A DNA stretch of 64,000 bases from Microbacterium salitolerans (GTDB lineage Bacteria; Actinomycetota; Actinomycetes; Actinomycetales; Microbacteriaceae). The DNA lies in the NCBI RefSeq assembly GCF_019720895.1, contig NZ_JAHKSH010000001.1, forward strand, positions 672,247-736,246. Direction: 5' to 3'. The notes under the pieces were generated by a model that was given only the letters and a program-made list of their open reading frames with translations, did no database searches and was not told the DNA's origin. Of this stretch, positions 4,670-23,033 are shown one piece after another. The first letter of the stretch is position 1. Each line of letters starts with the position of its first letter. A program made the position numbers and the translations under genes.

Positions 4670-4704
4670 GAGGGCCCCGTTCTGCTTCGGCAGGCGGGGC
4701 CCTC
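4670..4704 (+). terminator. Terminator after the dsbA-like gene
   Basis: A perfect 10-bp inverted repeat (GAGGGCCCCG at 4670-4679, CGGGGCCCTC at 4695-4704) with a 15-base loop. There is no clear U-tract. It would close the sec/ribosomal transcript just before the inserted island. Confidence 0.65.
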
Positions 4705-4800
4705 GGCGTGTTACCGAAATGTGAAGATTCTCGCTTGGGGGAGACATCCCTGTGACAGCGGGGCAGAAACGCGTCCGCATCCGGTAGGAATGAATGTGAG

Positions 4801-4842
4801 GTGCAACTGTACATTGCACGGTCCTACATCACACGGCTAGAG
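4801..4842 (+). promoter_or_regulatory. Promoter with overlapping operator for the hydroxyproline-peptide operon
   Basis: A perfect palindrome GTGCAACTGTACATTGCAC occupies 4801-4819. Its right arm doubles as a -35-like TTGCAC (4814-4819), followed 17 bases later by CTAGAG as a weak -10 (4837-4842). The substrate-binding-protein gene begins 44 bases further on. The position suggests repression by a dimeric regulator, most simply the GntR protein encoded in the island. This is inferred from sequence only. Confidence 0.55.
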
Positions 4843-4886
4843 TCCCGCGTATGCAATGGGGCACACAGAAAGCAGGTTCACGCGCG

Positions 4887-6578
4887 ATGACCACGAAGAC
4901 GAACACCAGGGCGGGCGTTCTCGCTCTCGGGATGGCGGGCGTGCTGGCGCTGGCCGGCTGCAGCGGCAGCGCCGCGACCGGCCCCGAGTCGAGCGACGAG
5001 CCGCAGAGCGGCGGCACCGTCCACATGCTGCAGAACACCGACTTCTCGTACCTCGACCCGGCCCGCGGATGGGACGGCGGCGTCAACGCGTTCTACCGCC
5101 TGATGTACCGCGGCCTCATGATGCAGACGGCGGGCGACGCCGAGGATCCGAACGCGATCGTTCCGGACCTCGCGACGTCGGCGGGTGAGCCCTCCGAAGA
5201 CGGCCTCACCTGGACCTACACGCTGAAGGACGACATCTTCTTCGACAACGGCGACCCGATCACGTCGGCCGAGGTCAAGTTCGGCATCTCGCGGGCCTGG
5301 GATCCTCAGATCGGCATCGGATCCCCGTACCTCAAGAGCGTCATCGACGCCCCCGAGGGATACGAGGGGCCCTACGTGACGGGCGACCTTCCCACGATCG
5401 AGACGCCGGACGACAAGACGATCGTCTTCCACCTCAAGGAGCCGTTCCGCGAGTTCGACAACGTGCTCGCGCAGGCGAACGCCGTGCCGTTCCCCGAAGG
5501 AACGGGCGGCGGCGACGAGTTCATCAACGACGTGATCGCCTCCGGGCCCTACACGCTCGAGAGCTACACGCCGGGCAGCTCGATCTCGCTCGTGCGCAAC
5601 GAGTACTGGGAGCCCGAGAGCGATGACGTGCGCGAGGCCTACCCCGACGCCTGGGAGGTCGAGATCGGCATCGATCCCGCGACGATCGACGAGCGGATGG
5701 TCGCCGGCCAGGGCACCGACGGGAACGCGATCGCGAGCCGGATCCAGGGAGCCACCCTGCCGCGCCTGCAGACGCCCGAGCTGCAGGACCGGGCCATCGC
5801 GGCCGAGGCATACTGCCTCACCTACATGGGCCTGAACACGACGAAGGAGCCCTTCGACGACGTGCGCGTGCGCCAGGCGGTCAACTGGGCGCTCGATCGC
5901 TCGACCGTCCAGAACGTCTCCGGCGGCAGTCAGCTCGCCGACCCGGCGACGACGATCATCCCGCCGGCCGTCACGGGCCACAAGGACTTCGACCTGTACC
6001 CCAGCGACGACATGGCGGGCGACCCCGAGAAGGCGAAGGAGCTGCTCGCCGAGGCGGGCTACGAGGACGGCGTCTCGTTCACGCTCGACATCCGCTCCAA
6101 CGACATCGCCCAGGCGCAGGCCGAGGCCGTGCAGGAGTCTCTGCTGGATGCGGGCATCGAGGTCGAGCTCAACGTCATCGACGCGGCGATCTTCTACGAG
6201 ACGATCGGCACGCCCTCGCAGCAGCACAACGCCGCGATCACGGGCTGGTGCCCGGACTGGGCGTCGAGCGCCAGCACCTTCATCCCGCCGCTGTTCGACG
6301 GCGACAACATCCTCGAGAAGGGCAACTCCAACCTCGCCCAGCTCGACGAGGCCGATGTCAACTCGCGTATCGACGAGATCATGGCGATGGAGGACATCGA
6401 GGAGGCGAACGCCGCCTGGGGCGACCTGGACGAGCAGATCATGGAGCTCGCTCCGATCGCGCCCCTCGTGCTCGAGAAGAGCATCTTCGTTCCGGGCGAG
6501 AACATCGCCGGCTACTACCCGAACACCAACATGACCGACCTCACCATCATCGGTCTCAAGGATCCCTCGAAGGGCTGA
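4887..6578 (+). CDS. Peptide ABC transporter substrate-binding lipoprotein
   Basis: A 563-residue family 5 (DppA/OppA-type, PF00496) solute-binding protein. The N-terminus is a lipoprotein signal ending at LALAGC, so the mature protein is anchored by Cys and lies outside the membrane. Family stretches include GGTVHMLQNTDFSYLDPARG, TYTLKDDIFFDNGDPITSAEVKF and VRQAVNWALDR. The ATG at 4887 is preceded by AGAAAGCAGG; an in-frame ATG at 4851 would add 12 residues before the signal peptide and is less likely. First gene of a tightly packed operon; from context its ligand is probably a proline- or hydroxyproline-containing (glyco)peptide. Confidence 0.92.
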   Translation: MTTKTNTRAGVLALGMAGVLALAGCSGSAATGPESSDEPQSGGTVHMLQNTDFSYLDPARGWDGGVNAFYRLMYRGLMMQTAGDAEDPNAIVPDLATSAGEPSEDGLTWTYTLKDDIFFDNGDPITSAEVKFGISRAWDPQIGIGSPYLKSVIDAPEGYEGPYVTGDLPTIETPDDKTIVFHLKEPFREFDNVLAQANAVPFPEGTGGGDEFINDVIASGPYTLESYTPGSSISLVRNEYWEPESDDVREAYPDAWEVEIGIDPATIDERMVAGQGTDGNAIASRIQGATLPRLQTPELQDRAIAAEAYCLTYMGLNTTKEPFDDVRVRQAVNWALDRSTVQNVSGGSQLADPATTIIPPAVTGHKDFDLYPSDDMAGDPEKAKELLAEAGYEDGVSFTLDIRSNDIAQAQAEAVQESLLDAGIEVELNVIDAAIFYETIGTPSQQHNAAITGWCPDWASSASTFIPPLFDGDNILEKGNSNLAQLDEADVNSRIDEIMAMEDIEEANAAWGDLDEQIMELAPIAPLVLEKSIFVPGENIAGYYPNTNMTDLTIIGLKDPSKG

Positions 6579-6579
6579 C

Positions 6580-7548
6580 ATGACCACCCCCTCGACTGAG
6601 CTCGAGGCGGAGGCGCCCGGCGACGACTCTTCGCATGATCTGCGAGAGTCGTCGCCGGCTTCCGGCCGCCGCCTGCTGAAGGCCTTCGTCACGGATGTGC
6701 CGTCGATGCTGTCGACCGGCTACATCGTCGTGATGACCCTCGCCGCGATCTGCGCACCGCTCGTCGTGCAGATCAGCGGGTGGGGACCGTACGAGTTCGA
6801 CCAGGACGCGATCGACCCCGACATGGGGGCGATCCCGATCGGCCCGCTCGGCGGGATCAGCGCGGAGCACTGGTTCGGCGTCGAGCCGGGCAGCGGCCGC
6901 GACATCTTCGCGCGCATCGTCTACGGCGCGCGCGTCTCGTTCACCGTCGCGCTCAGCGCCACCCTGCTCACCACGATTCTGGGCGTCGTCTTCGGCCTGC
7001 TGGCGGGATACTTCGGCGGGATCATCGACAACGTGATCTCCCGCGTCATGGAGTTCCTCATGGCGTTCCCCGCGCTCATCTTCATGATCGCGATCCTCTC
7101 GGCGCTTCCTGCCGACAACCGCGTGCTGCTGCTCGTCCTCGTGATCTCGATCTTCGGGTGGCCCTACCTCGCCCGCATCGTGCGATCGCAGACCCTCTCG
7201 CTCAAGGAGCGCGAGTTCGTCGAGTCGGCGCGCGCGTCCGGCGCGACCCACGCCCAGATCATCTTCCGCGAGGTCCTGCCGAACCTGCAGTCGACCATCG
7301 TCGTCATGGCCACGCTCGCGGTCCCCGGCTACGTCGGAACCGAGGCGGGGCTGTCGTTCCTCGGCGTCGGCGTCGTGCCGCCCACGCCCAGCTGGGGCCA
7401 GATGATCGCCGCGGCCGCTCCCTGGTACGCCGTCGATCCGATGTACTTCATCATCCCCGGCGTCTTCCTGTTCCTGCTCGTGCTGTCGTTCACGACGCTC
7501 GGCGACCGCGTGCGCGTCATCGCGCGCAGCGGGGAGGTGCGCGCATGA
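6580..7548 (+). CDS. Peptide ABC transporter permease (DppC type)
   Basis: A 322-residue inner-membrane permease with an N-terminal cytoplasmic tail, a first membrane helix near residues 46-62 and the BPD_transp_1 domain in the second half. The EAA-type loop that contacts the ATPase is visible as EFVESARASGATHAQIIFREVLPN. A DppC-like extracytoplasmic segment with HWFGVEPGSGRDIFARIVYGARVS precedes the core. It starts one base after the binding-protein stop (AAGGG upstream) and overlaps the next gene by ATGA. DppC precedes DppB here, the reverse of the E. coli order. Confidence 0.93.
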   Translation: MTTPSTELEAEAPGDDSSHDLRESSPASGRRLLKAFVTDVPSMLSTGYIVVMTLAAICAPLVVQISGWGPYEFDQDAIDPDMGAIPIGPLGGISAEHWFGVEPGSGRDIFARIVYGARVSFTVALSATLLTTILGVVFGLLAGYFGGIIDNVISRVMEFLMAFPALIFMIAILSALPADNRVLLLVLVISIFGWPYLARIVRSQTLSLKEREFVESARASGATHAQIIFREVLPNLQSTIVVMATLAVPGYVGTEAGLSFLGVGVVPPTPSWGQMIAAAAPWYAVDPMYFIIPGVFLFLLVLSFTTLGDRVRVIARSGEVRA

Positions 7549-8543
7549 TCCGCTTCATCGCCTCCCGCCTGTCCGGAATGGTGATCGTGCTCGCGCTGGT
7601 GACGCTGTTCACCTACGTGATCTTCTTCGTGCTCTCCCCGGATCCCGCGGTGCAGATCTGCGGCAAGCACTGCACCCCCGAGCGCATCGATCAGATCCGC
7701 ACGAGCCTCGGGCTCGATCAGCCGTTCTGGGCCCAGTTCTTCACCTACGTCGGCGGCCTCTTCGCCGGACGGACGTTCATGGTCGCCGGTTCCGAGGTCG
7801 TCTGCTCGGCGCCGTGCCTCGGGTACTCGTTCCAGACGAGCCAGCTCGTGGGCGACATGATCGTGCAGCGCCTGCCGATTTCGGTGACGATCGCGCTCGG
7901 CGCGGCCGTGCTGTGGCTGCTCGGCGGCGTCTCCGCCGGCGTGATCAGCGCCGTCAAGGAGGGGAAGTTCCTCGACAGGTTCATCGCGGGGCTCACGCTC
8001 GGATCCATGTCGGTGCCGAACTACGTCGTCGCCCTGACCCTGCAGTTCCTGCTGGTCGTCGTGCTCGGGTGGCTGCCCTTCCCGCAGGCGGTGCCGTTCG
8101 CGGACGATCCGGTGCAGTGGTTCCTCAACTTCCTCATGCCCTGGATCGTGCTCGCCCTCACCTACGCGGCGGTCTACACGCGCCTCACCCGCGCCAACGT
8201 GATCGACACCCTGCAGGAGAACTTCGTGCGCACCGCGCGGGCGAAGGGCCTGAAGCCCGGTCTCGTCTGGCGCCGCCACGCGCTGCGGCCGGCGCTGACG
8301 CCCATCGTGACGATGTTCGGAATGGACATCGCCGGCCTGCTCGGCGGCGCCCTCATCACCGAGACCGTGTTCGGCATGAACGGCGTCGGCAAGCTCACGG
8401 CCGATTCGATCGCGAAGAACGATCAGCCCGTCATCATGGCGGTCACGCTGCTGTCGGCCTTCTTCGTGATCATCGGGAACTTCGTGGTCGATCTGCTCTA
8501 CTCGGCGATCGATCCCCGCGTCCGGACAGGAGCACGCGCATGA
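7545..8543 (+). CDS. Peptide ABC transporter permease (DppB type)
   Basis: A 332-residue membrane permease. It begins with the DppB-type helix MIRFIASRLSGMVIVLALVTLFTY and carries the EAA loop NFVRTARAKGLKPGLVWRRHALRPALTP. An extracytoplasmic segment at about residues 35-90 contains four cysteines (CGKHC and CSAPC), more than usual for this family, and might form disulfides. It overlaps both flanking genes by four bases, so its start is well supported. Confidence 0.93.
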   Translation: MIRFIASRLSGMVIVLALVTLFTYVIFFVLSPDPAVQICGKHCTPERIDQIRTSLGLDQPFWAQFFTYVGGLFAGRTFMVAGSEVVCSAPCLGYSFQTSQLVGDMIVQRLPISVTIALGAAVLWLLGGVSAGVISAVKEGKFLDRFIAGLTLGSMSVPNYVVALTLQFLLVVVLGWLPFPQAVPFADDPVQWFLNFLMPWIVLALTYAAVYTRLTRANVIDTLQENFVRTARAKGLKPGLVWRRHALRPALTPIVTMFGMDIAGLLGGALITETVFGMNGVGKLTADSIAKNDQPVIMAVTLLSAFFVIIGNFVVDLLYSAIDPRVRTGARA

Positions 8544-9394
8544 ACCAGCAGACGGATCCGCTGCTGACCGTCGACGGTCTCCGCGTCGCCTTCACGACGG
8601 CGCAGGGCGAATCGGCCGTCGTGAAGAACCTTAGCTTCTCGCTTCCGCGCGGAGGATCTCTCGGGATCGTCGGCGAATCGGGGTCCGGGAAGTCGATGAC
8701 GAGCCTCGCGATCATGGGCCTGCTGCCCAAGGGCGGGAAGGTCTCCGGGGCGATCGACTTCGACGGGGTGCGGCTCACCGATCTTCCCGAGAAGCAGATG
8801 CGCAGAGTGCGCGGCGACCGGATCGCCATGATCTTCCAGGATCCGCTCTCCTCGCTGAACCCGTACTACCGGGTCGGCATGCAGATCGAGGAGGCCTACC
8901 GCTCGCACCGGCCCGGCGCCTCGCGCAAGGAGGCGAGGAAGGTGGCGATCGCCGCGCTCCAGCGGGTGAGGATCCGCGACGCCGAGACCCGCATCGACCA
9001 CTATCCGCACCAGTTCTCGGGCGGCATGCGGCAGCGCATCATGATCGCGATGGCTCTGACGATGGAGCCCGACCTGATCATCGCCGACGAGCCCACGACC
9101 GCCCTCGATGTGACGGTGCAGGCGCAGATCCTCGATCTGCTCGCCGAGATCCGGGAGGAGACCGGCGCGAGCCTGATCCTCATCACGCACGACCTCGCGG
9201 TCGTGAGCGAGGTCACGGACGACATCATCGTGCTCCGCGAGGGCGACATGGTCGAACAGGGACCCACCGAGCAGATCTTCTGCGATCCGCAGCACGTCTA
9301 CACGCGGCGGCTGCTCGACGCGGTGCCGCGCATCGACGACGAGATCGGCACGCTGCGCACGACCGACATCACGACGGTGGGAGAAGACGAATGA
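8540..9394 (+). CDS. Peptide ABC transporter ATPase (DppD type)
   Basis: A 284-residue ABC ATPase. Walker A is GESGSGKS, the Q-loop is FQDPLSSLNP, the signature is FSGGMRQR and Walker B is DLIIADEPTTALD, followed by the H-loop ITHD. The C-terminal extension with PQHVYTRRLLDAVPRID is typical of oligopeptide importers. Four-base overlaps with both neighbours. Confidence 0.94.
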   Translation: MNQQTDPLLTVDGLRVAFTTAQGESAVVKNLSFSLPRGGSLGIVGESGSGKSMTSLAIMGLLPKGGKVSGAIDFDGVRLTDLPEKQMRRVRGDRIAMIFQDPLSSLNPYYRVGMQIEEAYRSHRPGASRKEARKVAIAALQRVRIRDAETRIDHYPHQFSGGMRQRIMIAMALTMEPDLIIADEPTTALDVTVQAQILDLLAEIREETGASLILITHDLAVVSEVTDDIIVLREGDMVEQGPTEQIFCDPQHVYTRRLLDAVPRIDDEIGTLRTTDITTVGEDE

Positions 9395-10248
9395 CCGCTG
9401 CGCCGCTGTGCCGGGCAACCGGCCTCGTCAAGGAGTTCGCCACGGGGCGGCCGTCGCTTCTCGGACGGAAGAGCTCCTTCCGCGCCGTCGACGACGTCTC
9501 GCTCGAGGTGCGCGCAGGGGAGACCCTCGCGATCGTGGGCGAGTCGGGATCGGGCAAGTCCACCACGGCGCGCCTCGTGGCGCGGCTCATGGAGCCGACG
9601 GCCGGCACGGTCGAGCTCGAGGGCGAGGACGTCACCTCGTATCGGTCGAAGGACCTCCACGAGTTCCGCCGGGCCGTGCAGGTCATCTTCCAGGATCCGT
9701 TCTCCTCGCTGAACCCGCGTCACACGGTCGAGCGCCTGGTCACGGCGCCGCTCGTCTACCAGAAGCGAAAGATCCCCGGGGGAGCGAAGGCGTTCACGCG
9801 CGGTCTCATGGAGCGCGTCGGCCTCAACCCCGACCTGTCGGATCGCTACCCGTCGCAGTTCTCGGGCGGTCAGGCGCAGCGCATCGGCATCGCGCGGGCC
9901 CTCGCCGTCGGGCCCAAGCTCGTGATCTGCGACGAGGCGGTCTCAGCACTCGACGTCTCGGTGCAGGCGCAGGTCATCAACCTGCTGCGCGACCTGCAGG
10001 CCGATGAGGGCTTCGGGTACCTCTTCATCGCGCACGATCTCGCAGTCGTGCGCCAGATCGCCACGCGCGTCGCGGTCATGAGCGAGGGCCGCATCGTCGA
10101 GCAGGGCGATCGCGACGCGATCTTCGACGCGCCCCAGCACGAGTACACCCAGACGCTGCTGAAGGCCGTGCCGCGCATCGATCCCGAGTGGGATCGCCGC
10201 AGGCGCGAGGCGCAGCGTCGCCGTGAGGAACAGGAGAGGTCCGCGTGA
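9391..10248 (+). CDS. Peptide ABC transporter ATPase (DppF type)
   Basis: A 285-residue ABC ATPase that would pair with the preceding one. It has Walker A GESGSGKST, Q-loop FQDPFSSLNP, signature FSGGQAQR, Walker B LVICDEAVSALD and H-loop AHDLAVV. The alanine in DEAVSALD is the usual DppF/OppF variant. The C-terminus is highly charged (RRRREAQRRREEQERSA). It overlaps the next gene by GTGA. Confidence 0.94.
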   Translation: MTAAPLCRATGLVKEFATGRPSLLGRKSSFRAVDDVSLEVRAGETLAIVGESGSGKSTTARLVARLMEPTAGTVELEGEDVTSYRSKDLHEFRRAVQVIFQDPFSSLNPRHTVERLVTAPLVYQKRKIPGGAKAFTRGLMERVGLNPDLSDRYPSQFSGGQAQRIGIARALAVGPKLVICDEAVSALDVSVQAQVINLLRDLQADEGFGYLFIAHDLAVVRQIATRVAVMSEGRIVEQGDRDAIFDAPQHEYTQTLLKAVPRIDPEWDRRRREAQRRREEQERSA

Positions 10249-11531
10249 CCACGACGTACATGCTTCCGGGGATCCGCGTGCGCGAGCAGCGCGTGACGGT
10301 CCCGCTCGACTGGTCGGCGGACGGCGGCGAGACGATCGACCTGTTCGTGCGCGAGCTCGTGGATCCCGACCGCGACCGCGCCGACCTCCCCCTGCTCACC
10401 TACCTGCAGGGCGGCCCGGGCGGCGCGAACCCGCGGCCCCTCAGTCGCGGCGGGTGGATCGACGAGGCGCTGCGCGACTACCGCATCGTCTTCGTCGACC
10501 AGCGCGGCACGGGCGCGAGCACGCCCCTCGACGCGCAGGTCGTCGCCGAGCGCGGCGACGGGCGCGCGGGCGCCGACTACCTCGCCCTGTTCCGCGCCGA
10601 CTCGATCGTTCGCGACCTCGAGCACGTGCGGCGCACGCTGTACGACGGCCGGCGGTGGTCGACGCTCGCGCAGAGCTACGGCGGGTGGATCACGCTCACC
10701 TACCTGTCGTTCGCGCCCGAGGCGCTGGCCGCCAGCTACATCTGCGGAGGCGTTCCGGGAACGCCTCCGCGGGCGAGCGAGGTGTACCGGCGGACGTTCG
10801 GTCGCGTCGCCGCTAAGACGGCCGAGCTGTATCGCCGCTACCCCGACGACGAGGCGCGCGTCGCCGAGATCGCCGACGCCCTGTCGTCGGACGACGTCCT
10901 GCTGCCCGACGGCGACGTCCTCACCGTGCGCCGGTTCCAGTCTCTGGGCATCGACATGGGCATGAAGCCGGGCCATGAGCGCCTGCACTGGCTGATCGAG
11001 AAGGCGTTCGTGCGCCCGGGGCGCTTCTCCGAAGCGTTCCTCCTCGACGTGCTGGTGCAGTCGTCGAACGCGACGAGCCCGCTGTTCTGGACCCTCCAGG
11101 AGACGCTGTACGGGGATCCCGCGAGCGGCGCCACCGGCTGGGCCGCGCAGGCGGAGCGCGACCGGCGGCCCGAGTTCGACGAGGACCGACGCCCGCTGAT
11201 GTTCACGGGCGAGATGGCGTTCCCGTGGATGTTCGACGAGATCCGGCTCCTGCGCGGCTTCGCGCCGGCGGTGCACGAGCTCGCCGCGCGCACCGACTGG
11301 AGCCCCCTCTACGACCTGGGGCGCCTGGCCTCGAACGAGGTGCCTGTCGCGGCCGCGGTGTACTTCGACGACATGTACGTCGACGCCGAGCTGCAGCTCG
11401 ACACCCTCTCGCGTCTCGGGAACTCCGAGCGCTGGGTCACGAACGAGTACGAACACGATGGAATCGGATCCGGACGCACGTTCTCGCGCCTGCGCGAGAT
11501 CGTCCGCGACCGGGGAGGAGAACGCGCGTGA
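10245..11531 (+). CDS. Alpha/beta hydrolase, proline-iminopeptidase-like (S33)
   Basis: A 428-residue cytoplasmic hydrolase. The oxyanion-hole segment is LTYLQGGPGGANPRP, followed by the family-typical VFVDQRGTGAS. The nucleophile elbow is AQSYGGW with Ser144, which matches the GQSYGG motif of prolyl (imino)peptidases except for the leading Ala. These enzymes release N-terminal proline from peptides; cleavage of Pro- or Hyp-starting peptides is the natural guess given the neighbours. The GTG start overlaps the ATPase stop. No signal peptide, so it acts on imported peptides. Confidence 0.85.
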   Translation: MTTTYMLPGIRVREQRVTVPLDWSADGGETIDLFVRELVDPDRDRADLPLLTYLQGGPGGANPRPLSRGGWIDEALRDYRIVFVDQRGTGASTPLDAQVVAERGDGRAGADYLALFRADSIVRDLEHVRRTLYDGRRWSTLAQSYGGWITLTYLSFAPEALAASYICGGVPGTPPRASEVYRRTFGRVAAKTAELYRRYPDDEARVAEIADALSSDDVLLPDGDVLTVRRFQSLGIDMGMKPGHERLHWLIEKAFVRPGRFSEAFLLDVLVQSSNATSPLFWTLQETLYGDPASGATGWAAQAERDRRPEFDEDRRPLMFTGEMAFPWMFDEIRLLRGFAPAVHELAARTDWSPLYDLGRLASNEVPVAAAVYFDDMYVDAELQLDTLSRLGNSERWVTNEYEHDGIGSGRTFSRLREIVRDRGGERA

Positions 11532-12943
11532 CCGCACGACCGCCCTACGCAGGGACCCGATACCCGAAGCTCGCCGAGATCCCGGCCTTCACGGAGTGGA
11601 TCGCCGGCGGCTGGGAGGACCGACAGGTCGCCCCGACCATCCCCGAGGGATCCGCCACGGCCGCCGCCGCGCACCGCGACCGCCTGAGCGCCCGCTTCCC
11701 CGGGCAGACGCTGGTCGCGGCCGCAGGGACCGCCCCGACGCGCAACGACGACAGCGTGTACGGCTTCCGCGCCGACAGCAGCTTCGTCTGGCTCACGAGC
11801 TGCCAAGTCGAGGACGCGGTGCTCGTGATGTGGGCGCGCGACGGCGGGCACGACGCCGTCCTCTACATGCCGGCGCCGTTCCGTCCGGGCGACGCGGGCT
11901 TCTTCTCGAACGCCCTGCACGGCGAGCTCTGGGTGGGGCCCTCGGCCGGACTCGCGGAGTGGGCTGACGCCCTCGGCGTCGACGTGCGCCCGCTGGCCGA
12001 CCTCGAATCCGCGGCCGGGGGAGACGCCCTGGCGACGCGCGCGGCGGCGCCTCTCCTCGCGGGCGTCGAGTCCTCGTCGGAGCTCGAGCGCGAGCTGTCG
12101 AAGCTGCGGATGATCAAGGACGCGTGGGAGATCGAGCAGCTGCGCGGCGCCGTCGACGCGACGGTGAGCGGCTTCGCGGCGACCGCGGCGGAGATCCCCC
12201 GCGCGATCGCTGAGGGCACCGGCGAGCGCTGGCTGCAGGGCACGTTCGACCGGCACGCGCGCACGTACGGCAACGGACCCGGGTACTCGACCATCGTCGG
12301 CTCGGGGGCGCACGCGCCGGTGCTGCACTGGGTGCGCTGCGATGGGCCCGTCGTGGAGGACGCGGCGCTCCTGCTCGACATGGGCGTCGAGGCCCGCTCG
12401 CTGTACACGGCTGACGTCACGCGCACGCTCCCCGCGAGCGGATCCTTCAGCGCGGCGCAGCGGGAGGCGCACGACCTCGTCGAGAAGGCCCACCGCGCCG
12501 GCCTCGCCCAGATCCGCCCCGGCACCGAGTACCTCGACTTCCACTTCGCGGCGATGGAGGTCGTCGCGCAGGGGCTGAGCGACTGGGGGCTGCTGCCCGT
12601 CTCGGTCGACGAGGCGCTGTCGCCGAGCGGCCAGCACCACCGCCGCTATCTCGCCTGCGGCATCGGGCACCACCTGGGCCTCGATGTGCACGACTGCAGC
12701 CAGTCGCACTACGAGGACTACATGGGCGCGCAGCTCGAGCCCGGCGTGGTGATGACCGTCGAGCCCGGCCTGTACTTCCACGCGCACGACGAGACGGTGC
12801 CGCCTGAGCTCCGCGGCGTCGGCGTGCGCCTCGAGGACGATGTGCTCGTGACCGAGACCGGATCCGATGTGCTGTCCGATGCGCTCCCGATCGACGCCGA
12901 CGGCATCGAACGCTGGACGCGCGCGCAGCGGGGCGACGCGTGA
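11528..12943 (+). CDS. Xaa-Pro aminopeptidase (M24B)
   Basis: A 471-residue two-domain enzyme that removes the residue preceding a proline. The N-terminal half (to about residue 180) is the aminopeptidase-P domain; the C-terminal half is the pita-bread domain with all five metal ligands: D284 (LLDMGVEA), D296 (TADVTRT), H381 (GIGHHLG), E412 (VEPGLYF) and E436 (LEDDVLV). The GTG at 11528 overlaps the upstream stop (GTGA). No signal peptide. With the preceding hydrolase it would let the cell strip imino-acid-rich peptides down to free Pro or Hyp. Confidence 0.92.
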   Translation: MTARPPYAGTRYPKLAEIPAFTEWIAGGWEDRQVAPTIPEGSATAAAAHRDRLSARFPGQTLVAAAGTAPTRNDDSVYGFRADSSFVWLTSCQVEDAVLVMWARDGGHDAVLYMPAPFRPGDAGFFSNALHGELWVGPSAGLAEWADALGVDVRPLADLESAAGGDALATRAAAPLLAGVESSSELERELSKLRMIKDAWEIEQLRGAVDATVSGFAATAAEIPRAIAEGTGERWLQGTFDRHARTYGNGPGYSTIVGSGAHAPVLHWVRCDGPVVEDAALLLDMGVEARSLYTADVTRTLPASGSFSAAQREAHDLVEKAHRAGLAQIRPGTEYLDFHFAAMEVVAQGLSDWGLLPVSVDEALSPSGQHHRRYLACGIGHHLGLDVHDCSQSHYEDYMGAQLEPGVVMTVEPGLYFHAHDETVPPELRGVGVRLEDDVLVTETGSDVLSDALPIDADGIERWTRAQRGDA

Positions 12944-15690: not shown

Positions 15691-15713
15691 CGCGCATCGC
15701 GCGCACCTGTGAC

Positions 15714-15729
15714 TACAATTGCAATTGTA
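15714..15729. promoter_or_regulatory. Palindromic operator upstream of the deaminase gene
   Basis: TACAATTGCAATTGTA is a perfect 16-bp palindrome, 24 bases after the GH127 stop and 43 bases before the deaminase ATG. Its first six bases (TACAAT) could serve as a -10 element. With flanking bases it contains GTACAATTGCA, one base different from GTACATTGCA in the palindrome at 4801-4819, so the same regulator may bind both. Confidence 0.6.
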
Positions 15730-15771
15730 CTTAACGACAACGGCGCCTCGGCGCCAGGAGAAGGGGAAGTC

Positions 15772-16680
15772 ATGACCAGCAACAAGCCGTGGCTCGGGGT
15801 CAACCTCGCGACGACGCTGCCGTTCCACGAGGACTACTCGGTGGCCTACGACGCGTACGCCGATCACGTCCAGGCCATGTCCGCGGCCGGCGTGAACGGG
15901 ATCATCCCGAACGGCTCGCTCGGCGAGTACCAGACGCTGACCGAGGAGGAGCGTCAGCGTGTCGTGACCACGGCGTTCGAGGCGGCCCCCGAGGGCGTCA
16001 ACGTCATCCCCGGCGTCGGCGCGTACGGCGCGTTCGAGAGCGTCCGTCACGCCGAGCACGCGGCAGAGAACGGGGCGCCCGCCGTCATGCTGCTTCCCCC
16101 CAACGCGTATCGCGCGAGCGACGACGAGGTCATGGACCACTTCCGTCGCGTCGCGGCCGTGGGCCTGCCGGTCCTCGCCTACAACAACCCGATCGACACC
16201 AAGGTCGACCTGCGCCCCGACCTGCTGGCGCGCCTGTACGACGAGGGCCTCATCGTCTCGGTCAAGGAGTTCTCGGGTGACGTGCGCAACGCGTACGCGA
16301 TCCGCGAGCAGGCGCCCGGCCTCGACGTCTCGATCGGGTCCGACGACGTCGTGCTCGAGCTCGGGATCAACGGCGCCGTGGGCTGGGTGGCCGGCTACAC
16401 CAACGCGATCCCGCACTCGACGATCGAGCTCTACGAGCTGTCGACCTCGGGCGACCCCGAGAAGTGGAAGCGCGCGCACGAGATCTACCGCGACCTCCAC
16501 GCGCTGCTGCGCTGGGATTCGAAGCACCTCTTCGTGCAGGCGATCAAGCTCTCGCAGCAGGTCGCCGGAACCGCGCCCGCCGGCATCACGACCCGTCCGC
16601 CCCGCCTGGCGCTGCCGGAGCAGATCCGCGCGCAGATCATCGCCGACACCGAGGCCGTCCTGGCCAAGGGCTACCGCTGA
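15772..16680 (+). CDS. lhpC: 1-pyrroline-4-hydroxy-2-carboxylate deaminase (DHDPS family)
   Basis: A 302-residue member of the DapA/NAL class I aldolase superfamily. The Schiff-base lysine is K165 (VSVKEFSGD) and the catalytic tyrosine Y137 (LAYNNP). In hydroxyproline catabolism this family converts pyrroline-4-hydroxy-2-carboxylate to 2-oxoglutarate semialdehyde plus ammonia. I prefer that to dihydrodipicolinate synthase because it is followed by the epimerase and the other hydroxyproline genes. The ATG at 15772 has a strong upstream AGGAGAAGGGG. Confidence 0.87.
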   Translation: MTSNKPWLGVNLATTLPFHEDYSVAYDAYADHVQAMSAAGVNGIIPNGSLGEYQTLTEEERQRVVTTAFEAAPEGVNVIPGVGAYGAFESVRHAEHAAENGAPAVMLLPPNAYRASDDEVMDHFRRVAAVGLPVLAYNNPIDTKVDLRPDLLARLYDEGLIVSVKEFSGDVRNAYAIREQAPGLDVSIGSDDVVLELGINGAVGWVAGYTNAIPHSTIELYELSTSGDPEKWKRAHEIYRDLHALLRWDSKHLFVQAIKLSQQVAGTAPAGITTRPPRLALPEQIRAQIIADTEAVLAKGYR

Positions 16681-16695
16681 GCGACACTGACCACC

Positions 16696-17697
16696 ATGCG
16701 AACGACACACCTCTACCACGCCGTCGACTCCCACACGGAGGGCATGCCCACCCGTGTGATCGTCGGCGGCGTGGGGACCTTCCCCGGCGACACGATGGAG
16801 GAGCGCCGGCAGTGGTTCATGGCGAACAGCGACGACCTGCGCACGCTGATCGTCACCGAGCCGCGCGGCCACAGCGCGATGAGCGGCGCGATCCTGCAGC
16901 CGCCCACGCGCCCTGACGCCGACTTCGGCGTGCTGTACATCGAGGTGTCGGGGTGCCTGCCGATGTGCGGCCACGGCACGATCGGAGTCGCCACCGTCCT
17001 CGTCGAGACCGGCATGGTGCCCGTCGTCGAGCCCGTCACCACGATTCGCCTCGACACCCCGGCGGGCCTCGTCGTCGCCGAAGTGGCCGTATCGGACGGA
17101 CACGCGGAGAACGTGACGATCCGCAACGTGCCGTCGTTCGTCGTCGGGCTCGACCGCACGGTCGACGTGCCCGGCCTCGGCGAGGTCGCCTACGACCTCG
17201 CCTTCGGCGGCAACTTCTACGCGATCGTCGAGCTCGAGGCGCTCGGTCTGCCGTTCGACCGCGCGCGCAAGGACGATCTCCTGCGGGCGGGGCTCGACAT
17301 CATGGCCGCGGTGAACGCGGCGGGCGCCCCGGTGCACCCGACGGATCCGGGGATCCGCGGATGCCGTCACGTGCACCTCGTCGCGCCCGGCTCGACGGCG
17401 GCGCACTCGCGTCACGCCATGGCCATCTCACCGGGCTGGTTCGATCGGTCGCCGTGCGGCACGGGCACGAGCGCGCGCATGGCGCAGCTGCACGCGCGGG
17501 GAGAGCTCGCGCTCGGCAGCGACTTCGTGAACGAGTCGTTCATCGGCACCTCGTTCACCGGAAGGCTGATCGAGGAGACGATCGTCGCCGGGATCCCCGC
17601 GGTCGTCCCGACCATCACGGGTCGCGCCTGGGTGACCGGCACGGCGCAGTACATGCTCGACCCCACCGACCCGTTCCCGCACGGTTTCGAGCTGTGA
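16696..17697 (+). CDS. lhpA: 4-hydroxyproline 2-epimerase (proline racemase family)
   Basis: A 333-residue enzyme expected to convert trans-4-hydroxy-L-proline to cis-4-hydroxy-D-proline. Both catalytic cysteines are present: C91 in MCGHG and C254 in SPCGTGTSARMA. Having Cys at both sites excludes trans-3-hydroxy-L-proline dehydratase, which has Ser or Thr at the first. Proline racemase remains possible from the motifs alone; the pathway genes favour the epimerase. It follows the deaminase by 15 bases. Confidence 0.88.
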   Translation: MRTTHLYHAVDSHTEGMPTRVIVGGVGTFPGDTMEERRQWFMANSDDLRTLIVTEPRGHSAMSGAILQPPTRPDADFGVLYIEVSGCLPMCGHGTIGVATVLVETGMVPVVEPVTTIRLDTPAGLVVAEVAVSDGHAENVTIRNVPSFVVGLDRTVDVPGLGEVAYDLAFGGNFYAIVELEALGLPFDRARKDDLLRAGLDIMAAVNAAGAPVHPTDPGIRGCRHVHLVAPGSTAAHSRHAMAISPGWFDRSPCGTGTSARMAQLHARGELALGSDFVNESFIGTSFTGRLIEETIVAGIPAVVPTITGRAWVTGTAQYMLDPTDPFPHGFEL

Positions 17698-17717
17698 CCG
17701 CCATTGCGGTGTCGCGC

Positions 17718-17744
17718 GTCACATCCTGGAAGGATCGATGTGAC
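17718..17744. promoter_or_regulatory. Inverted repeat upstream of gntR
   Basis: GTCACATC (17718-17725) and GATGTGAC (17737-17744) are perfect 8-bp arms separated by 11 bases, in the 100-base gap before the GntR gene. It is a candidate autoregulatory site, but unlike the 4801 and 15714 palindromes in sequence, so a small RNA hairpin or a different factor is equally possible. Confidence 0.4.
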
Positions 17745-17797
17745 GGGGGAAAGCCGGCCGGCACCCGCCGCTCGTCTACGTTCGGGGAGGACCAGTC

Positions 17798-18475
17798 ATG
17801 ACCACCACAGCAGGTCGCAACGTCGTTCGTCTGCCCAAGCAGCCGAACATCCGCGAGACGGTGAAGATGGCGCTGCAGTCGGCCATCATCAGTGGCGAGA
17901 TGGAGCCGGGGCGGGTGTACTCCGCGCCGAGCCTGGCGGAGGAGTTCGGAGTGTCGGCCACGCCGATCCGCGAGGCGATGCTCGACCTCGCGCGGCAGGG
18001 CCTCGTCGTCGCGATGCCCAACCGGGGCTTCCAGATCACGCAGCTGTCGGAGAAGGACCTCGTCGAGGTCACTCAGCTGCGCCTGATGCTCGAGCCGCCC
18101 GCGGTCGAGGCGGCGACCGCGAACGTGCCCGCCGAGGCGCTCGTCGGGCTCCGCGAGCAGTGCGACGCCATCCTGCGCCACGCCGAGTCGGGTGACCTCG
18201 TCGCGTACCTCACGGCGGATCGCGAGTTCCACCTCGCGCTGCTGGCCTACGCGCAGAACGATCGTCTCGTCGATCTCGTCGCCTCCCTGCGCTCGCAGAC
18301 GCGCCTGTTCGGGCTGTCCGAGCTCTACGCAGAGGGGCGCCTGCCGGCCTCTGCCCGCGAGCATCACGCGATGATCGACGCCATCGAGGCGGGCGACGGC
18401 GCCCGCGCACGCGAGATCACCCACGCGCACATCGAACACGTGCTCACCGACTGGTCGGACCGCGACCGGCGATGA
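17798..18475 (+). CDS. GntR-family regulator (FCD/VanR type)
   Basis: A 225-residue regulator. The winged helix-turn-helix occupies about residues 18-75 (YSAPSLAEEFGVSATPIREAMLDLARQGLVV), followed by an all-helical FCD effector domain with metal-ligand-type residues in DREFHLALL and REHHAMIDAI. Its effector is probably a hydroxyproline-pathway intermediate. ATG at 17798 follows GGGGAGGACC. The next gene overlaps its stop (ATGA), so regulator and dehydrogenase are cotranscribed. Confidence 0.92.
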   Translation: MTTTAGRNVVRLPKQPNIRETVKMALQSAIISGEMEPGRVYSAPSLAEEFGVSATPIREAMLDLARQGLVVAMPNRGFQITQLSEKDLVEVTQLRLMLEPPAVEAATANVPAEALVGLREQCDAILRHAESGDLVAYLTADREFHLALLAYAQNDRLVDLVASLRSQTRLFGLSELYAEGRLPASAREHHAMIDAIEAGDGARAREITHAHIEHVLTDWSDRDRR

Positions 18476-19638
18476 CGCAGGGGCAGACCACATACGACCT
18501 CGTCGTCATCGGCGCGGGAATCATGGGCGCGGCGACCGCGTACTTCGCCGCCCGCGCCGGGCTCTCGGTCGTCGTCATCGAGCGCGGATCCATCGCCTCG
18601 GGCACGAGCAGCAGGTGCGAGGGCAACATCCTCGTCTCGGACAAGGAGCGCGGCCCCGAGCTCGAGCTCGCGCTCTACTCCCGGCAGGTGTGGCGCGAGG
18701 ACCTCGCGGAGCACGCCGACGACTGGGAGTACCAGGACAAGGGCGGCATGATCGTCGCCGAGACCGACGCGAGCATGCAGAACCTGCTCGCGCTCGTCGA
18801 ACACCAGCGCGCACTCGGCATCGACGCCGACGTGCTGCACGGCGAGCGCGAGCTGCACGCGCTCGAGCCGTACCTCGCCCCCGACCTCGTCGGCGGCGCG
18901 TTCTATCCCGGCGACGCCCAGGTGCAGCCGATTCTCGCGACGCATCATCTCCTGCGCCTCGCGCGTGACGCGGGCGCGGAACTGCGCACCCACACGCCGG
19001 TTCTCGCGATCGAGACCGGTCGGGGGCGCGTGACGGGCGTGCGCACGCCCGACGGCGTCATCGGCGCGGAGGCCGTCATCAACTGCGGCGGTGCGTGGAG
19101 CGCCGACGTGGCCGCCCTCGCGGGGGTCGAGCTGCCGGTGCTGCCGCGGCGCGGCTTCGTGCTCGTCACCGAGCCGGTGCCCATCACGATCCATCACAAG
19201 GTGTACTCGGCGGGATACGTGGGCGACGTCGCCAGCTCGGATCCGTCGCTGCAGGTCTCGCCTGTCGTCGAGGGCACCCCGAGCGGCACCATCCTGCTCG
19301 GCGCGAGCCGCGAGCGCGTCGGCTTCGACGAGTCGTTCTCGATCGAGGCGGTCTCCCGCATCGCGCGGGCCGGGGTCAGCCTCTTCCCGGCCCTCGCCGA
19401 CCTCAAGCTCCTCCGCGCGTACTCCGGCTTCCGCCCGTACTGCCCCGACCACCTCCCGGTCATCGGGCCCGACGCCCGTCTCCCGGGGCTGTGGCACTCG
19501 GCGGGGCAGGAGGGCGCGGGCATCGGGCTGTCGGTCGGCGTCGCCAAGGTGCTCGCCCAGGCGCTCGTCGGCGCGCAGACCGACCTCGACCTCACCCCCT
19601 TCCGGCCTGAGCGATTCGAAGGAGACGCCGCCGCATGA
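18472..19638 (+). CDS. lhpB: D-hydroxyproline dehydrogenase, FAD (DAO-type) subunit
   Basis: A 388-residue FAD-dependent amino-acid oxidase-type protein (PF01266). The dinucleotide-binding motif VIGAGIMGAATAYFAARAG lies near residues 11-29, and the C-terminal flavin-contact region reads YSGFRPYCPDHLPVIGP and SAGQEGAGIGLS. Together with the two following genes it matches the three-subunit (LhpBEF/HcnABC-like) dehydrogenase that oxidises cis-4-hydroxy-D-proline to pyrroline-4-hydroxy-2-carboxylate. Four-base overlaps at both ends. Confidence 0.87.
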   Translation: MTQGQTTYDLVVIGAGIMGAATAYFAARAGLSVVVIERGSIASGTSSRCEGNILVSDKERGPELELALYSRQVWREDLAEHADDWEYQDKGGMIVAETDASMQNLLALVEHQRALGIDADVLHGERELHALEPYLAPDLVGGAFYPGDAQVQPILATHHLLRLARDAGAELRTHTPVLAIETGRGRVTGVRTPDGVIGAEAVINCGGAWSADVAALAGVELPVLPRRGFVLVTEPVPITIHHKVYSAGYVGDVASSDPSLQVSPVVEGTPSGTILLGASRERVGFDESFSIEAVSRIARAGVSLFPALADLKLLRAYSGFRPYCPDHLPVIGPDARLPGLWHSAGQEGAGIGLSVGVAKVLAQALVGAQTDLDLTPFRPERFEGDAAA

Positions 19639-19937
19639 GTCCACAGGAAGAGCGGGCGACGTCGCTCACGTTCGACGGGCGCCGCGTGCCGTTCCGCCCG
19701 GGGCAGACGATCGGCGCCGCGCTCATGGCGCACGGCATCTCGTCCTGGCGCACCACACGTCGCGAGCGCACCGAACGCGGTCTCTTCTGCGGCATCGGCG
19801 TGTGCTTCGACTGCCTCGTGACCGTCGACGGCGCACGGGCCGAGCGCGCGTGCATCACACCGGCTGCGGGCGGGCAGGTCGTGACGAGCGAGGATCCCGA
19901 TCGCCCCGTGCGGCGGCCGGAGGCTCGCCATGACTGA
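19635..19937 (+). CDS. lhpF: D-hydroxyproline dehydrogenase, [2Fe-2S] ferredoxin-like subunit
   Basis: A 100-residue plant-type ferredoxin-fold subunit (HcnA/SoxX-like). Four cysteines for one [2Fe-2S] cluster are at residues 52, 57 and 60 (CGIGVCFDC) and 73 (RACITP). The N-terminus has the family beta-grasp stretch FDGRRVPFRPGQTIGAALMAHG. It lies between the two flavoprotein subunits and overlaps them by four and eight bases, as expected for a stoichiometric complex. Confidence 0.88.
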   Translation: MSPQEERATSLTFDGRRVPFRPGQTIGAALMAHGISSWRTTRRERTERGLFCGIGVCFDCLVTVDGARAERACITPAAGGQVVTSEDPDRPVRRPEARHD

Positions 19938-21384
19938 GGCGGGAGCGGCGGATCTCGCGATCGTCGGAGCCGGTCCCGCGGGGCTCAGCGCCGCCGTGAC
20001 GGCCGCCGACGCGGGGCTCGCCGTCACCGTCGTCGACTCCGCGCGGCAGACCGGCGGCCAGTTCTGGCGGCACCCGGACGAGCGCCATCTCGACAGCTTC
20101 GAGCGACCGGAGTCGACGGGCCACCACCACTGGTCGACGTATCGCACTCTGCGCGATCGGTTCGACACGGCCGTCCGCGAGGGACGGATCCGCCACGTCC
20201 GCGAACGCCAGGTCTGGCGCGTCGAGCGGGCGGAGGGCGGGGGAGCGGTGCTGCACACGACCGCCGTCGCCGGCACCGAGCAGTGGGCGCCGGCGCAGCG
20301 CGCGATCGCCGCACGCCGCGTCCTGCTCGCCACGGGCGCCTCCGACCGGCAGCTGCCGGTTCCCGGGTGGACGCTCCCCGGCGTCATGGCCGCGGGCGGC
20401 GTGCAGGCGCTGCTGAAGGCCCATCAGGTCTCGGCGGGCCGACGCGCGGTGGTCGCCGGCACCGGCCCCTTTCTGCTGTCGGTCGCGGCGGGGCTCGCCG
20501 AGGCGGGCGTGGAGGTCGTCGCGGTCTGCGATGCCAACGCCCTCACGCGCTGGGCGCGGACGCCGCTGCGCGCCCTGCAGGAACCCGGCAAGCTGCTCGA
20601 GGGAGCCGGCTACGCCGCGACGTTCGTGCGCAGGCGCATCCCCCTCCGCACCCGCACGATCGTCGCCGAGGTGCGCGGGTCGGGGCGCGCGAGCGAGGTC
20701 GTCCTGCAGAAGGTCGACGCGACGGGTCGCACCGTGGACGGCACGGCCCGCACCGTGGCCGCAGACCTGGTGGCGCTCGGGTGGGGCTTCACCCCGCAGC
20801 TGGAGCTCGCCGTCGGACTCGGGGTCGACACGCAGGTGGATGTCGACGGATCCCTGGTGGTCGCGGTCGACGACGCGCAGCGCACCTCGATGCCCGAGGT
20901 GTACGCCGCGGGCGAGGCCACGGGCATCGGCGGCGCCGTGCAGTCGTGCGCCGAGGGCGAGCTGGCGGCGCTCGCCGTGGCGAACGACCTCATCGCCTCC
21001 GAGCCCGGCAGGCGCGCCGCACGCCTGCGCCGTCGCATCGCACGCGGACGCCGGTTCTCCGTCGGGATGCATCGCGCCAGCCCCGTCCCCGCGGGTTGGG
21101 CCACCTGGCTGCGCCCCCAGACCACCGTCTGCCGCTGTGAGGAGGTGTCCGCCGCCGAGGTGAGCGAGACCGTCTCGTGCCTGGCGGCCGACGACCCCCG
21201 CGACGTGCGCGTCACGGCCCGCCCTGGCATGGGATGGTGCCAGGGGCGCATCTGCGGATTCGCCCTCGCGAAGCTCGTCGGGCACCACACCCATGCCGAG
21301 CCCGACGCACACGACCTGGCGCCGCTCGCGAAGCGACCGATCGGGATCCCCGTGCGCCTGGGCGACATCGCCGACCTGACCTGA
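19930..21384 (+). CDS. lhpE: D-hydroxyproline dehydrogenase, FAD/NAD(P)-type subunit with [2Fe-2S] domain
   Basis: A 484-residue pyridine-nucleotide-disulfide-type flavoprotein (HcnB-like). The FAD motif IVGAGPAGLSAAVTAADAG is at the N-terminus, a second nucleotide-binding region at GRRAVVAGTGPFLLSVAAGL, and a BFD-like iron-sulfur domain at the C-terminus with C401, C403, C437 and C442 (CRC ... CQGRIC). It completes the dehydrogenase complex and passes electrons onward, probably to the respiratory chain. Confidence 0.87.
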   Translation: MTEAGAADLAIVGAGPAGLSAAVTAADAGLAVTVVDSARQTGGQFWRHPDERHLDSFERPESTGHHHWSTYRTLRDRFDTAVREGRIRHVRERQVWRVERAEGGGAVLHTTAVAGTEQWAPAQRAIAARRVLLATGASDRQLPVPGWTLPGVMAAGGVQALLKAHQVSAGRRAVVAGTGPFLLSVAAGLAEAGVEVVAVCDANALTRWARTPLRALQEPGKLLEGAGYAATFVRRRIPLRTRTIVAEVRGSGRASEVVLQKVDATGRTVDGTARTVAADLVALGWGFTPQLELAVGLGVDTQVDVDGSLVVAVDDAQRTSMPEVYAAGEATGIGGAVQSCAEGELAALAVANDLIASEPGRRAARLRRRIARGRRFSVGMHRASPVPAGWATWLRPQTTVCRCEEVSAAEVSETVSCLAADDPRDVRVTARPGMGWCQGRICGFALAKLVGHHTHAEPDAHDLAPLAKRPIGIPVRLGDIADLT

Positions 21385-21412
21385 ACGCATCACCAGAAGA
21401 GGAGCACACCAC

Positions 21413-22879
21413 GTGAGCACCGACCAGACTCCGTCCGCCGACGTCGACCGGATCGTCGCCGACGCGGCGATCGCCTCCGCCGAGTGGAAGAAGACCCCCT
21501 CTGACGCGCGCGCCGCGGCCCTCGTCGCCGTCGGCGATGCGCTCGACGCGCGCGCCGACGAGCTCGTCGCCCTCGCCCAGCACGAGACCCACCTCGCCGA
21601 AGCGCGCCTCCGCGGCGAGCTGAAGCGCACCACCTTCCAGCTGCGTCTGTTCGGCGAGGTGCTCGCGGAGGGCAGCTGGCTCGACGCCCGCATCGATCAC
21701 GCCGACCCCGAGTGGCCCATGGGGGCGCCTCGCCCCGACCTGCGCCGGCAGCTCGAGTCGATCGGCCCCGTGCTGGTCTTCGCGGCGAGCAACTTCCCCT
21801 TCGCGTTCTCCGTCGCCGGCGGCGACAGCGCGAGCGCGCTCGCCGCGGGCAGCGCCGTCGTCCTCAAGGCGCATCCCGGGCACCCCGAGCTCTCGGCGCT
21901 CACCACGCGTGTCGTGAGCGAGGCACTGGCCGCGGCCGGGGCGCCGCCGGCACTGTTCCAGACCATCTTCGGAACCGACGCCGGGGTGCGGGCGCTCCGC
22001 GCGAGCGAGATCAAGGCGGCCGCCTTCACCGGATCGATCGCCGGAGGGCGCGCCCTGCTCGACATCGCGAACGCGCGCGACGAGCCGATCCCCTTCTTCG
22101 GCGAGCTCGGCAGCGTCAACCCCGTGTTCGTGACGAGGGCGGCCGCCGACGCCCGGGGAGAGGCGCTCGCAGGGGACTTCCTCGCCTCGGTCATGGGAAG
22201 CGCCGGGCAGCTCTGCACCAAGCCGGGAGTGCTGTTCGTCCCCGAGGGAGCCGTCGCGGTCGAGCGCCTGACCGACGCCAGCGCGCTTCCGAGCGCGGGT
22301 CCCCTTCTGAACGACAGCATCGCGCAGGGCTTCGCCCGCTCCGTCGCACGCACGCGCGACCACGAGGGCGTCGCGGTGGCCGCCGCCGCGGACGACGCAG
22401 GCGGCACGGCGCCCGTCGTGTTCCGCACGACGATCGATCGGGTCCTCGCCGACGCCGATGCGCTCCTGGCCGAGATGTTCGGGCCGGCGGCGCTCGTCGT
22501 CGAATACGCCGACGAGGCCGACCTGATCGCGGTCGCCGGACGCCTCGAAGGGCAGCTCACGGCGACGATCATCGCGGAGGACGGCGACGAGATCGCCCCG
22601 ACGCTGATCGGCGCCCTCGCACAGCGCGCGGGGCGCGTGCTCTGGAACCAGTGGCCGACGGGCGTCTCCGTCACCTGGGCGCAGCAGCACGGCGGCCCCT
22701 ATCCCGCGACGACGGCCGTGGGCACGACCTCGGTCGGCACGGCCGCGATGGGGCGCTTCCTGCGGCCCGTCGCCTACCAGGGGCTTCCCGATCACCTGCT
22801 GCCGGATGCGCTGAAGGAATCCAATCCGCTCCGCATCCCGCGGCGGGTCGACGGTGCGATGCAGCTGGCAGATCGCTGA
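21413..22879 (+). CDS. lhpG: 2-oxoglutarate semialdehyde dehydrogenase (KGSADH)
   Basis: A 488-residue aldehyde dehydrogenase. The general-base glutamate is E231 (FFGELGSVNPVF) and the catalytic cysteine C268 (GSAGQLCTKPG). The sequence style (ELGSVNPVF, GQLCTKPGVLF) is that of the hydroxyproline-linked KGSADH group. It would oxidise 2-oxoglutarate semialdehyde to 2-oxoglutarate, the last pathway step. The GTG start at 21413 follows AGAGGAG; it lies 28 bases after the dehydrogenase and ends at a strong terminator. Confidence 0.88.
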   Translation: MSTDQTPSADVDRIVADAAIASAEWKKTPSDARAAALVAVGDALDARADELVALAQHETHLAEARLRGELKRTTFQLRLFGEVLAEGSWLDARIDHADPEWPMGAPRPDLRRQLESIGPVLVFAASNFPFAFSVAGGDSASALAAGSAVVLKAHPGHPELSALTTRVVSEALAAAGAPPALFQTIFGTDAGVRALRASEIKAAAFTGSIAGGRALLDIANARDEPIPFFGELGSVNPVFVTRAAADARGEALAGDFLASVMGSAGQLCTKPGVLFVPEGAVAVERLTDASALPSAGPLLNDSIAQGFARSVARTRDHEGVAVAAAADDAGGTAPVVFRTTIDRVLADADALLAEMFGPAALVVEYADEADLIAVAGRLEGQLTATIIAEDGDEIAPTLIGALAQRAGRVLWNQWPTGVSVTWAQQHGGPYPATTAVGTTSVGTAAMGRFLRPVAYQGLPDHLLPDALKESNPLRIPRRVDGAMQLADR

Positions 22880-22891
22880 GGGCTCGTGCCG

Positions 22892-22929
22892 GACGACGCG
22901 CCCGGGTTGATCCACCCGGGCGCGTCGTC
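22892..22929 (+). terminator. Terminator closing the hydroxyproline island
   Basis: A perfect 15-bp inverted repeat (22892-22906 and 22915-22929) with an 8-base loop, 12 bases after the KGSADH stop. It marks the right edge of the island, before the ribosomal run resumes with infA. Confidence 0.8.
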
Positions 22930-23033
22930 TAACATGGATCTTTGGTGTCTTGCGCCTGCGTACGAGCGCGCTCAGACGCCGATCCACTCATTCACCGCAG
23001 ACCGGTCGGTCTGCTCAGAAGGTAAGCGAGTCT

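Follow-up and report, generated by a model that had tools for sequence, protein, structure and literature searches.

Here, we describe a block of 15 genes in a 64,000-nucleotide stretch of the Microbacterium salitolerans genome (contig NZ_JAHKSH010000001.1; the whole stretch is called the window below), all on the + strand between positions 4887 and 22879, that very probably forms one catabolic unit for arabinosylated hydroxyproline (Hyp) peptides from plants, of the extensin type and possibly including arabinosylated signalling peptides. The original prediction had proposed that such peptides are imported and then fully broken down inside the cell. This route from import to oxidation is the best supported reading on comparative grounds: the linkage recurs with Hyp genes of two lineages and in three or more layouts, the export signal is missing only in the linked clade of glycosidases, related DNA sites precede both halves of the block, and a secreted paralogue of the glycosidase occurs together with a homologue from glycoside hydrolase (GH) family GH121. 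For the substrate, the best reading is Hyp peptides that are mostly mono-arabinosylated.

In the proposed pathway, a lipoprotein and an ATP-binding cassette (ABC) importer would take short Hyp glycopeptides into the cell, where a cytoplasmic GH146-type cysteine glycosidase would strip the Hyp-linked beta-L-arabinofuranose. Two exopeptidases would then alternate, with aminopeptidase P cutting off the residue that precedes Pro or Hyp, and prolyl aminopeptidase cutting off the N-terminal Pro or Hyp that is thereby exposed. Free trans-4-Hyp would pass through an epimerase, a three-subunit D-Hyp dehydrogenase, a deaminase and a semialdehyde dehydrogenase to 2-oxoglutarate, and L-arabinose could enter metabolism via an isomerase coded elsewhere (an L-arabinose isomerase (araA) family gene is present at C8 of the source genome). 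Finally, a HypR-like regulator would control both halves through related sites, presumably by repression. Gene content, recurrence, the intact catalytic residues, the missing export signal and the conserved DNA sites are seen directly in the sequences, whereas we infer the substrate, the enzyme activities, the protein that binds the sites and the effect of this binding.

The gene set was sought in other genomes, and it recurs in Microbacterium, in a second genus of the family (G387) and in Glycomyces, which is more than chance. Among 367 Microbacterium genomes, 52 match the glycosidase at E <= 1e-50, and 27 of these, the source included, carry an orthologue (56% identity or more). All 15 genes are found in the same order in 20 of the 26 other Microbacterium loci. 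Three of the remaining loci (L050, L058 and L066) break off where their contigs end, L045 is missing the aldehyde dehydrogenase match, L060 has the regulator with no Hyp genes adjoining, and L064 has its Hyp genes on the opposite side (seen in L127). Unit-bearing named loci of the collection include those of M. oryzae, M. hibisci, M. arabinogalactanolyticum and a metagenome-assembled genome (L005, L010, L006 and L008). An epimerase at 60% identity or more is present in all 27 unit-bearing genomes versus 30 of the 340 others (67 genomes match, and only the 57 at or above this identity are counted). It lies in the same locus as the glycosidase in 26 of the 27 (in G273 on split contigs, the second of which, L009, opens in the C-terminal half of the GH146 gene and continues with deaminase, aldehyde dehydrogenase and epimerase genes in an order of its own); in G012, the two are about 190 kb apart.

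Outside the genus, a draw of 299 genomes from the family gave an orthologue in two other genera. G387 has the whole gene set, and G552 has importer, peptidases and GH146 gene together, with the epimerase on another contig. Glycomyces paridis, which came only from a pattern scan that can miss relatives, contains the complete set, with a different order of the Hyp genes. A sparse draw of 396 genomes from the phylum yielded, besides the source genome, only four relatives at 39-49% identity, all of one genus; the 20-kb stretches around them contain no importer and no Hyp genes. In G552 (L089:6191-13236), a GH36 alpha-galactosidase and a GH127 gene flank the GH146 gene, a fuller set for extensin-like glycans; since extensin bears alpha-galactose on Ser beside arabinosylated Hyp (PMC5371791), this variant fits extensin glycopeptides well.

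Trees of the epimerase and of the oxidase, from which rows of 300 residues or fewer were omitted, resolve two lineages of Hyp genes (deaminase proteins are incomplete in several rows and were not used). The window-type lineage, where it is joined to the GH146 gene, has the layout importer, peptidases, GH146, deaminase, epimerase, GntR, oxidase subunits, aldehyde dehydrogenase. The Hyp genes of G079 and Glycomyces group instead with the other lineage, in a nine-row group with support of 100/100 in the epimerase tree and 98/97 in the oxidase tree. No GH146 gene adjoins the Hyp genes in the remaining seven loci of this lineage that were read (L128-L134). The Hyp genes stand before the importer in G079 and after the GH146 gene in Glycomyces. 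The oxidase tree places these two together (95/96, flagged for long branches), so a single joining event, followed by a later move, may underlie both. Conversely, the window-type Hyp half of G312 stands alone: the 20 kb read contain no importer and no GH146 gene. The importer/GH146 module has thus been joined to two Hyp lineages in at least three layouts, and unless the parts share a function, it is difficult to account for a linkage that persists across these arrangements and both partners.

The glycosidase of 12940-15690 (+ strand; 916 residues, PF07944) had been predicted to be a GH127 beta-L-arabinofuranosidase. The assignment as a cysteine beta-L-arabinofuranosidase stands, but the family does not: the protein groups with GH146 rather than GH127, with E values of 2.6e-54 to 5opj and 8.8e-38 to 8k7y (both GH146) against 3.1e-8, 1e-7 and 3.1e-7 to the GH127 structures 4qjy, 5mqo and 6ex6, in a comparison made within solved structures and thus excluding the sequences of XeHypBA1 and Bll4HypBA1. 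Only PF07944 and PF20736 were found in it at E <= 0.001, and the C-terminal domain of GH127, PF20737, was not; this domain is present in GH127-like proteins of the source genome and G552. The layout of an (alpha/alpha)6 barrel and beta-sandwich domains matches that of BtGH146. The catalytic residues E340, C342, C410, C411 and E322 align and are invariant in 30 of 30 orthologues, so that the Zn site (Glu-x-Cys plus Cys-Cys), the Cys nucleophile and the Glu acid/base are all in place, a set that is common to GH127 as well. GH146 does include enzymes that act on Araf-beta-Hyp: XeHypBA1, placed in GH146 by PMC10850190, prefers Ara-Hyp (PMC6085000). An extra C-terminal Ig-like/OmpL47-type region (window 15040-15690), odd in a cytoplasmic enzyme, is kept in the linked clade and absent from the aligned exported paralogues, which end near residue 700.

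Where does this enzyme act? Export signals were judged by eye with a hydropathy score. The N-terminus is readable in 29 of 30 rows of linked orthologues (L065 is broken), and none of these 29 shows a signal peptide. Twin-arginine (Tat) signals were found in 12 of 12 paralogues examined, out of 22 genomes with a paralogue at 45-50% identity, and in both of the outer relatives examined, out of four. The linked clade and the exported paralogues separate with full support in the glycosidase tree, which omits L065, whose frame is broken close to the N-terminus, and L066, which runs into a contig end. Because signal peptides are missing in the one group, Tat signals are present in the other and the two separate in the tree, the linked GH146 clade is most likely cytoplasmic. 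This placing agrees with its location beside an importer and exopeptidases that have no export signals, and the unit suggests a purpose for such a cytoplasmic clade.

The exported paralogue of the source genome lies elsewhere, in C5 at about 455-495 kb (G000:C5:455000-494999; L067, L068), with a sugar importer, a GH121 homologue (6m5a HypBA2, E 8.5e-173), a GH43 gene and a separate GH127 gene. A GH121 homologue accompanies the exported paralogue in 22 of 22 genomes, at 66-100% identity to that of the source genome in 13 and at only 41-43% in nine. GH121 enzymes free beta-Ara2 from Hyp-linked chains (PMC7263609; PMC10850190). This co-occurrence therefore ties the exported clade to Hyp-arabinosides, with the cytoplasmic clade tied to Hyp catabolism. 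The idea that every unit-bearing genome also has a GH121 trimming enzyme was rejected: a homologue is present in just seven of 27, versus 28 of the 340 others (one-sided Fisher p 0.0085, a value that ignores relatedness and is descriptive only), so many hosts must get short arabinosides elsewhere or trim them otherwise. Homologues of GH121 at E <= 1e-40 occur in 35 of the 367 Microbacterium genomes; the family has been placed mainly in bifidobacteria and Xanthomonas (PMC7263609).

A GntR regulator had also been predicted, and a GntR/FCD gene does occur in the block, although in its middle (17798-18475, + strand) and not at its head. By analogy, its HypR-like product may bind a conserved site with the core TGC(A/C)ATGT before the importer. 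Variants of AGTGCARTTGYACATTGCAC occur there, 63-80 bases upstream of the lipoprotein start; in the window, the predicted operator is GGTGCAACTGTACATTGCAC (4800..4819), which holds TGCAATGT on the reverse strand. The latter, with its sole exact occurrence in the window here, fits the core of the HypR motif of Streptomyces coelicolor, CTNTGC(A/C)ATGTCAC (PMC6608401). The exact core is present in 23 of 28 importer upstreams (the G079 promoter is counted twice among the 28), with misses in L007, L043, L064, L127 and L088. It is present in only seven of 396 stretches upstream of the other 14 genes, six of these before the deaminase gene, and in 1.6% of random pieces of 330 bases; none of the 28 stretches ahead of the regulator gene has it.

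The Hyp half may have a second operator. The palindrome TACAATTGCAATTGTA (15714..15729) stands before the deaminase gene, and ATTGCAAT is present at this position in 25 of 25 rows. On a matrix built from the importer sites (9 different sequences), the deaminase palindromes score 3.9-13.8 bits, values that are reached by 0.006-0.052 of random 210-base pieces. G312, the stand-alone Hyp half that was outside the matrix, has AGTACAATTGCACATTGCAC at its deaminase site with 32.6 bits, inside the importer-site range of 28.3-34.9; this importer-type site is the strongest individual hint of one regulator serving both halves. TGTACA before the regulator gene in some relatives was dropped as a candidate, as it falls at the end of an ornithine-cyclodeaminase-family gene. 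The gap between epimerase and GntR genes (window 17698-17797) is 965-1015 bases long in 21 of 26 rows, 77-104 in the window, L043, L045 and L088, and none in G312; in L005 and L010, the two tested, the long gap is an ornithine cyclodeaminase/mu-crystallin gene.

The original prediction also listed a peptide ABC importer, two proline-directed peptidases and the full trans-4-Hyp enzyme set, all co-oriented, and each is backed by comparisons with Pfam, NCBIfam and Protein Data Bank (PDB) sequences. All the genes that follow are on the + strand, and neighbours mostly overlap by a few bases or almost touch. The importer set is complete for the oligopeptide/dipeptide type: an SBP_bac_5 solute-binding lipoprotein of oligopeptide type (4887..6578; LAGC lipobox by eye; best PDB match 2wok, E 1.6e-81), two permeases (6580..7548, PF00528; 7545..8543, with BPD_transp_1_N) and two ATPases with oligo_HPY C-termini (8540..9394 and 9391..10248). 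The predicted prolyl aminopeptidase (10245..11531) is an alpha/beta-hydrolase of the long, S33-like type, with full-length similarity (query residues 5-409, E 1.5e-95) to 8jgn, AT3g61540/DM3, which we take to be a prolyl aminopeptidase; its GxSxG-like Ser motif reads AQSYGG versus GQSFGG, and the NCBIfam prolyl aminopeptidase models match it weakly, under cut-off. The Serratia prolyl aminopeptidase is of a shorter type. A review mentions a role of prolyl aminopeptidases when peptides rich in proline and hydroxyproline are degraded, and among its references is a paper whose title reports high activity of the Serratia enzyme towards acetylated hydroxyproline (PMC9147577). The M24 protein (11528..12943; AMP_N plus M24) is a predicted aminopeptidase P, or Xaa-Pro aminopeptidase: its top PDB matches are PepP (down to E 5.5e-50) with prolidases behind (5.6e-25), and it is under the NCBIfam cut-offs for both.

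Families of the epimerase, D-Hyp dehydrogenase, deaminase and semialdehyde dehydrogenase are all present together, an assignment at the level of families only. The predicted pyrroline-4-hydroxy-2-carboxylate deaminase (DHDPS family; 15772..16680) was listed as an open reading frame from 15709; the start at 15772 is more likely, because 15709 precedes the conserved palindrome and one relative starts at the equivalent of 15772. Next is the predicted 4-hydroxyproline epimerase (Pro_racemase, the proline racemase family; 16696..17697), which keeps both Cys and scores 359.9 bits with the 4-Hyp epimerase model (cut-off 376) and 353.4 with that for proline racemase (cut-off 556). Past the regulator gene, the predicted D-Hyp dehydrogenase comprises a DAO subunit (18472..19638), a small Fer2_4 subunit (19635..19937; PF13510, 78.9 bits, no match among NCBIfam models) and a Pyr_redox/BFD subunit (19930..21384). 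The block ends with an Aldh-family aldehyde dehydrogenase (21413..22879), predicted to act on 2-oxoglutarate semialdehyde.

How well do other explanations fare? The importer might carry small Hyp-arabinosides (Ara1-2-Hyp) or plain Hyp peptides, with the peptidases serving only unglycosylated Pro/Hyp peptides from the same importer. Family 5 binding proteins do bind many non-peptide ligands, and the matches of the lipoprotein include binders of agrocinopine, mannoside and nickel. However, its top match, 2wok, is an oligopeptide-binding protein, and both peptidases are found in 30 of 30 orthologous loci, so we regard this explanation as unlikely. A less likely one still, to which we give little credence, is that the glycosidase acts on another beta-L-arabinofuranose (Araf) substrate (rhamnogalacturonan I arabinan, arabinogalactan protein (AGP) or beta-Ara2), its place in an operon for Hyp peptide catabolism being incidental. 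Two GH146 enzymes, BT0349 and Bll3HypBA1, are active on structures derived from arabinan or AGP (PMC10850190), and the M. salitolerans protein has Trp W167 (equated with W162 of BT0349; residue offset checked with C416) in place of Ile I522 of Bll3HypBA1. Against this stand the linkage to both Hyp lineages, the constant company of GH121 homologues and the secreted paralogue, and the absence of any arabinan or AGP enzyme from inside the locus.

Chance adjacency of the two halves, or hitch-hiking on one mobile island, seems barely credible. The unit does move as a block, being carried elsewhere in G094 and G071, while in the window (3951-23252) it interrupts the gene block adk, map-like, dsbA-like / infA, rpmJ, rpsM, rpsK, rpoA (infA to rpsK named by eye). 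Of five relatives, four have 163-237 bases between the dsbA-like and infA matches, and in the fifth 2.5 kb of other DNA lies there. A chance neighbourhood is disfavoured by the recurrence, by the different Hyp lineage joined on the other side in G079, and by the related sites before both halves with a regulator inside the block. With glycopeptide catabolism as the preferred reading, perhaps the unit also scavenges arabinosylated plant signalling peptides of the CLE, PSY or HypSys type besides wall extensin. We consider this extension doubtful; it is compatible with the oligopeptide-type importer, with a deglycosylase that is apparently cytoplasmic and with the finding that 20 of 27 genomes have no GH121 homologue. 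If it is true, plant-associated actinobacteria destroy peptide hormones intracellularly and remove them from the root zone.

The pool of plant protein in extensins and other Hyp-rich glycoproteins is difficult to digest. The literature that we consulted on them covers the release and use of arabinose, with use of the peptide part hardly described. The chemistry, enzyme families and regulator type of the unit are already known; the joined importer, deglycosylase, peptidase and Hyp unit seems to be undescribed, and searches of an open-licence library gave no title or abstract that links GH127 or GH146 with Hyp catabolism. The binding protein, the glycosidase and the prolyl aminopeptidase are a possible tool set for handling arabinosylated peptides.

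We know of no GH127 or GH146 gene in the lhp/hyp clusters of Pseudomonas and Sinorhizobium, and that of S. meliloti presumably includes a peptidase-like gene. The chemical route of these clusters from trans-4-Hyp to 2-oxoglutarate is identical (summarised in PMC6608401). The HypR regulon of S. coelicolor (SCO6289-6294) likewise has a GntR/FadR-type repressor, a three-subunit D-Hyp dehydrogenase, a deaminase and an epimerase; it also holds a putative collagenase, its cluster is without a semialdehyde dehydrogenase gene, and the available text mentions neither 'arabino' nor 'extensin' (PMC6608401). The Hyp-arabinoside system of Bifidobacterium longum (HypBA1 of GH127, HypBA2 of GH121, HypAA of GH43 and Bll4HypBA1 of GH146) likewise aims beta-L-arabinofuranosidases and an ABC importer at plant Hyp-rich glycoproteins (PMC7263609; PMC10850190). 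As described there, it imports beta-Ara2, whereas here a peptide-type importer, prolyl peptidases and a Hyp pathway are joined to a GH146 enzyme that is most likely cytoplasmic; the B. longum-like cluster of the source genome is the GH121/GH43/GH146/sugar-importer group, away from the unit. Xanthomonas euvesicatoria has XeHypBA1/BA2/AA, of which XeHypBA1 is described as extracellular and carries a signal peptide, and the available text contains neither 'transporter' nor 'catabolism' (PMC6085000). The nearest published idea is an in-silico proposal for single-cell genomes of Latescibacteria (WS3), in which GH127 and oligopeptide import are combined for extensin use (PMC4454575). As far as its available text goes, that proposal is a genome-wide inventory with neither a joined locus nor a Hyp pathway, whereas the M. 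salitolerans unit would provide, within a single locus, a complete and testable route that leads from the glycopeptide to 2-oxoglutarate.

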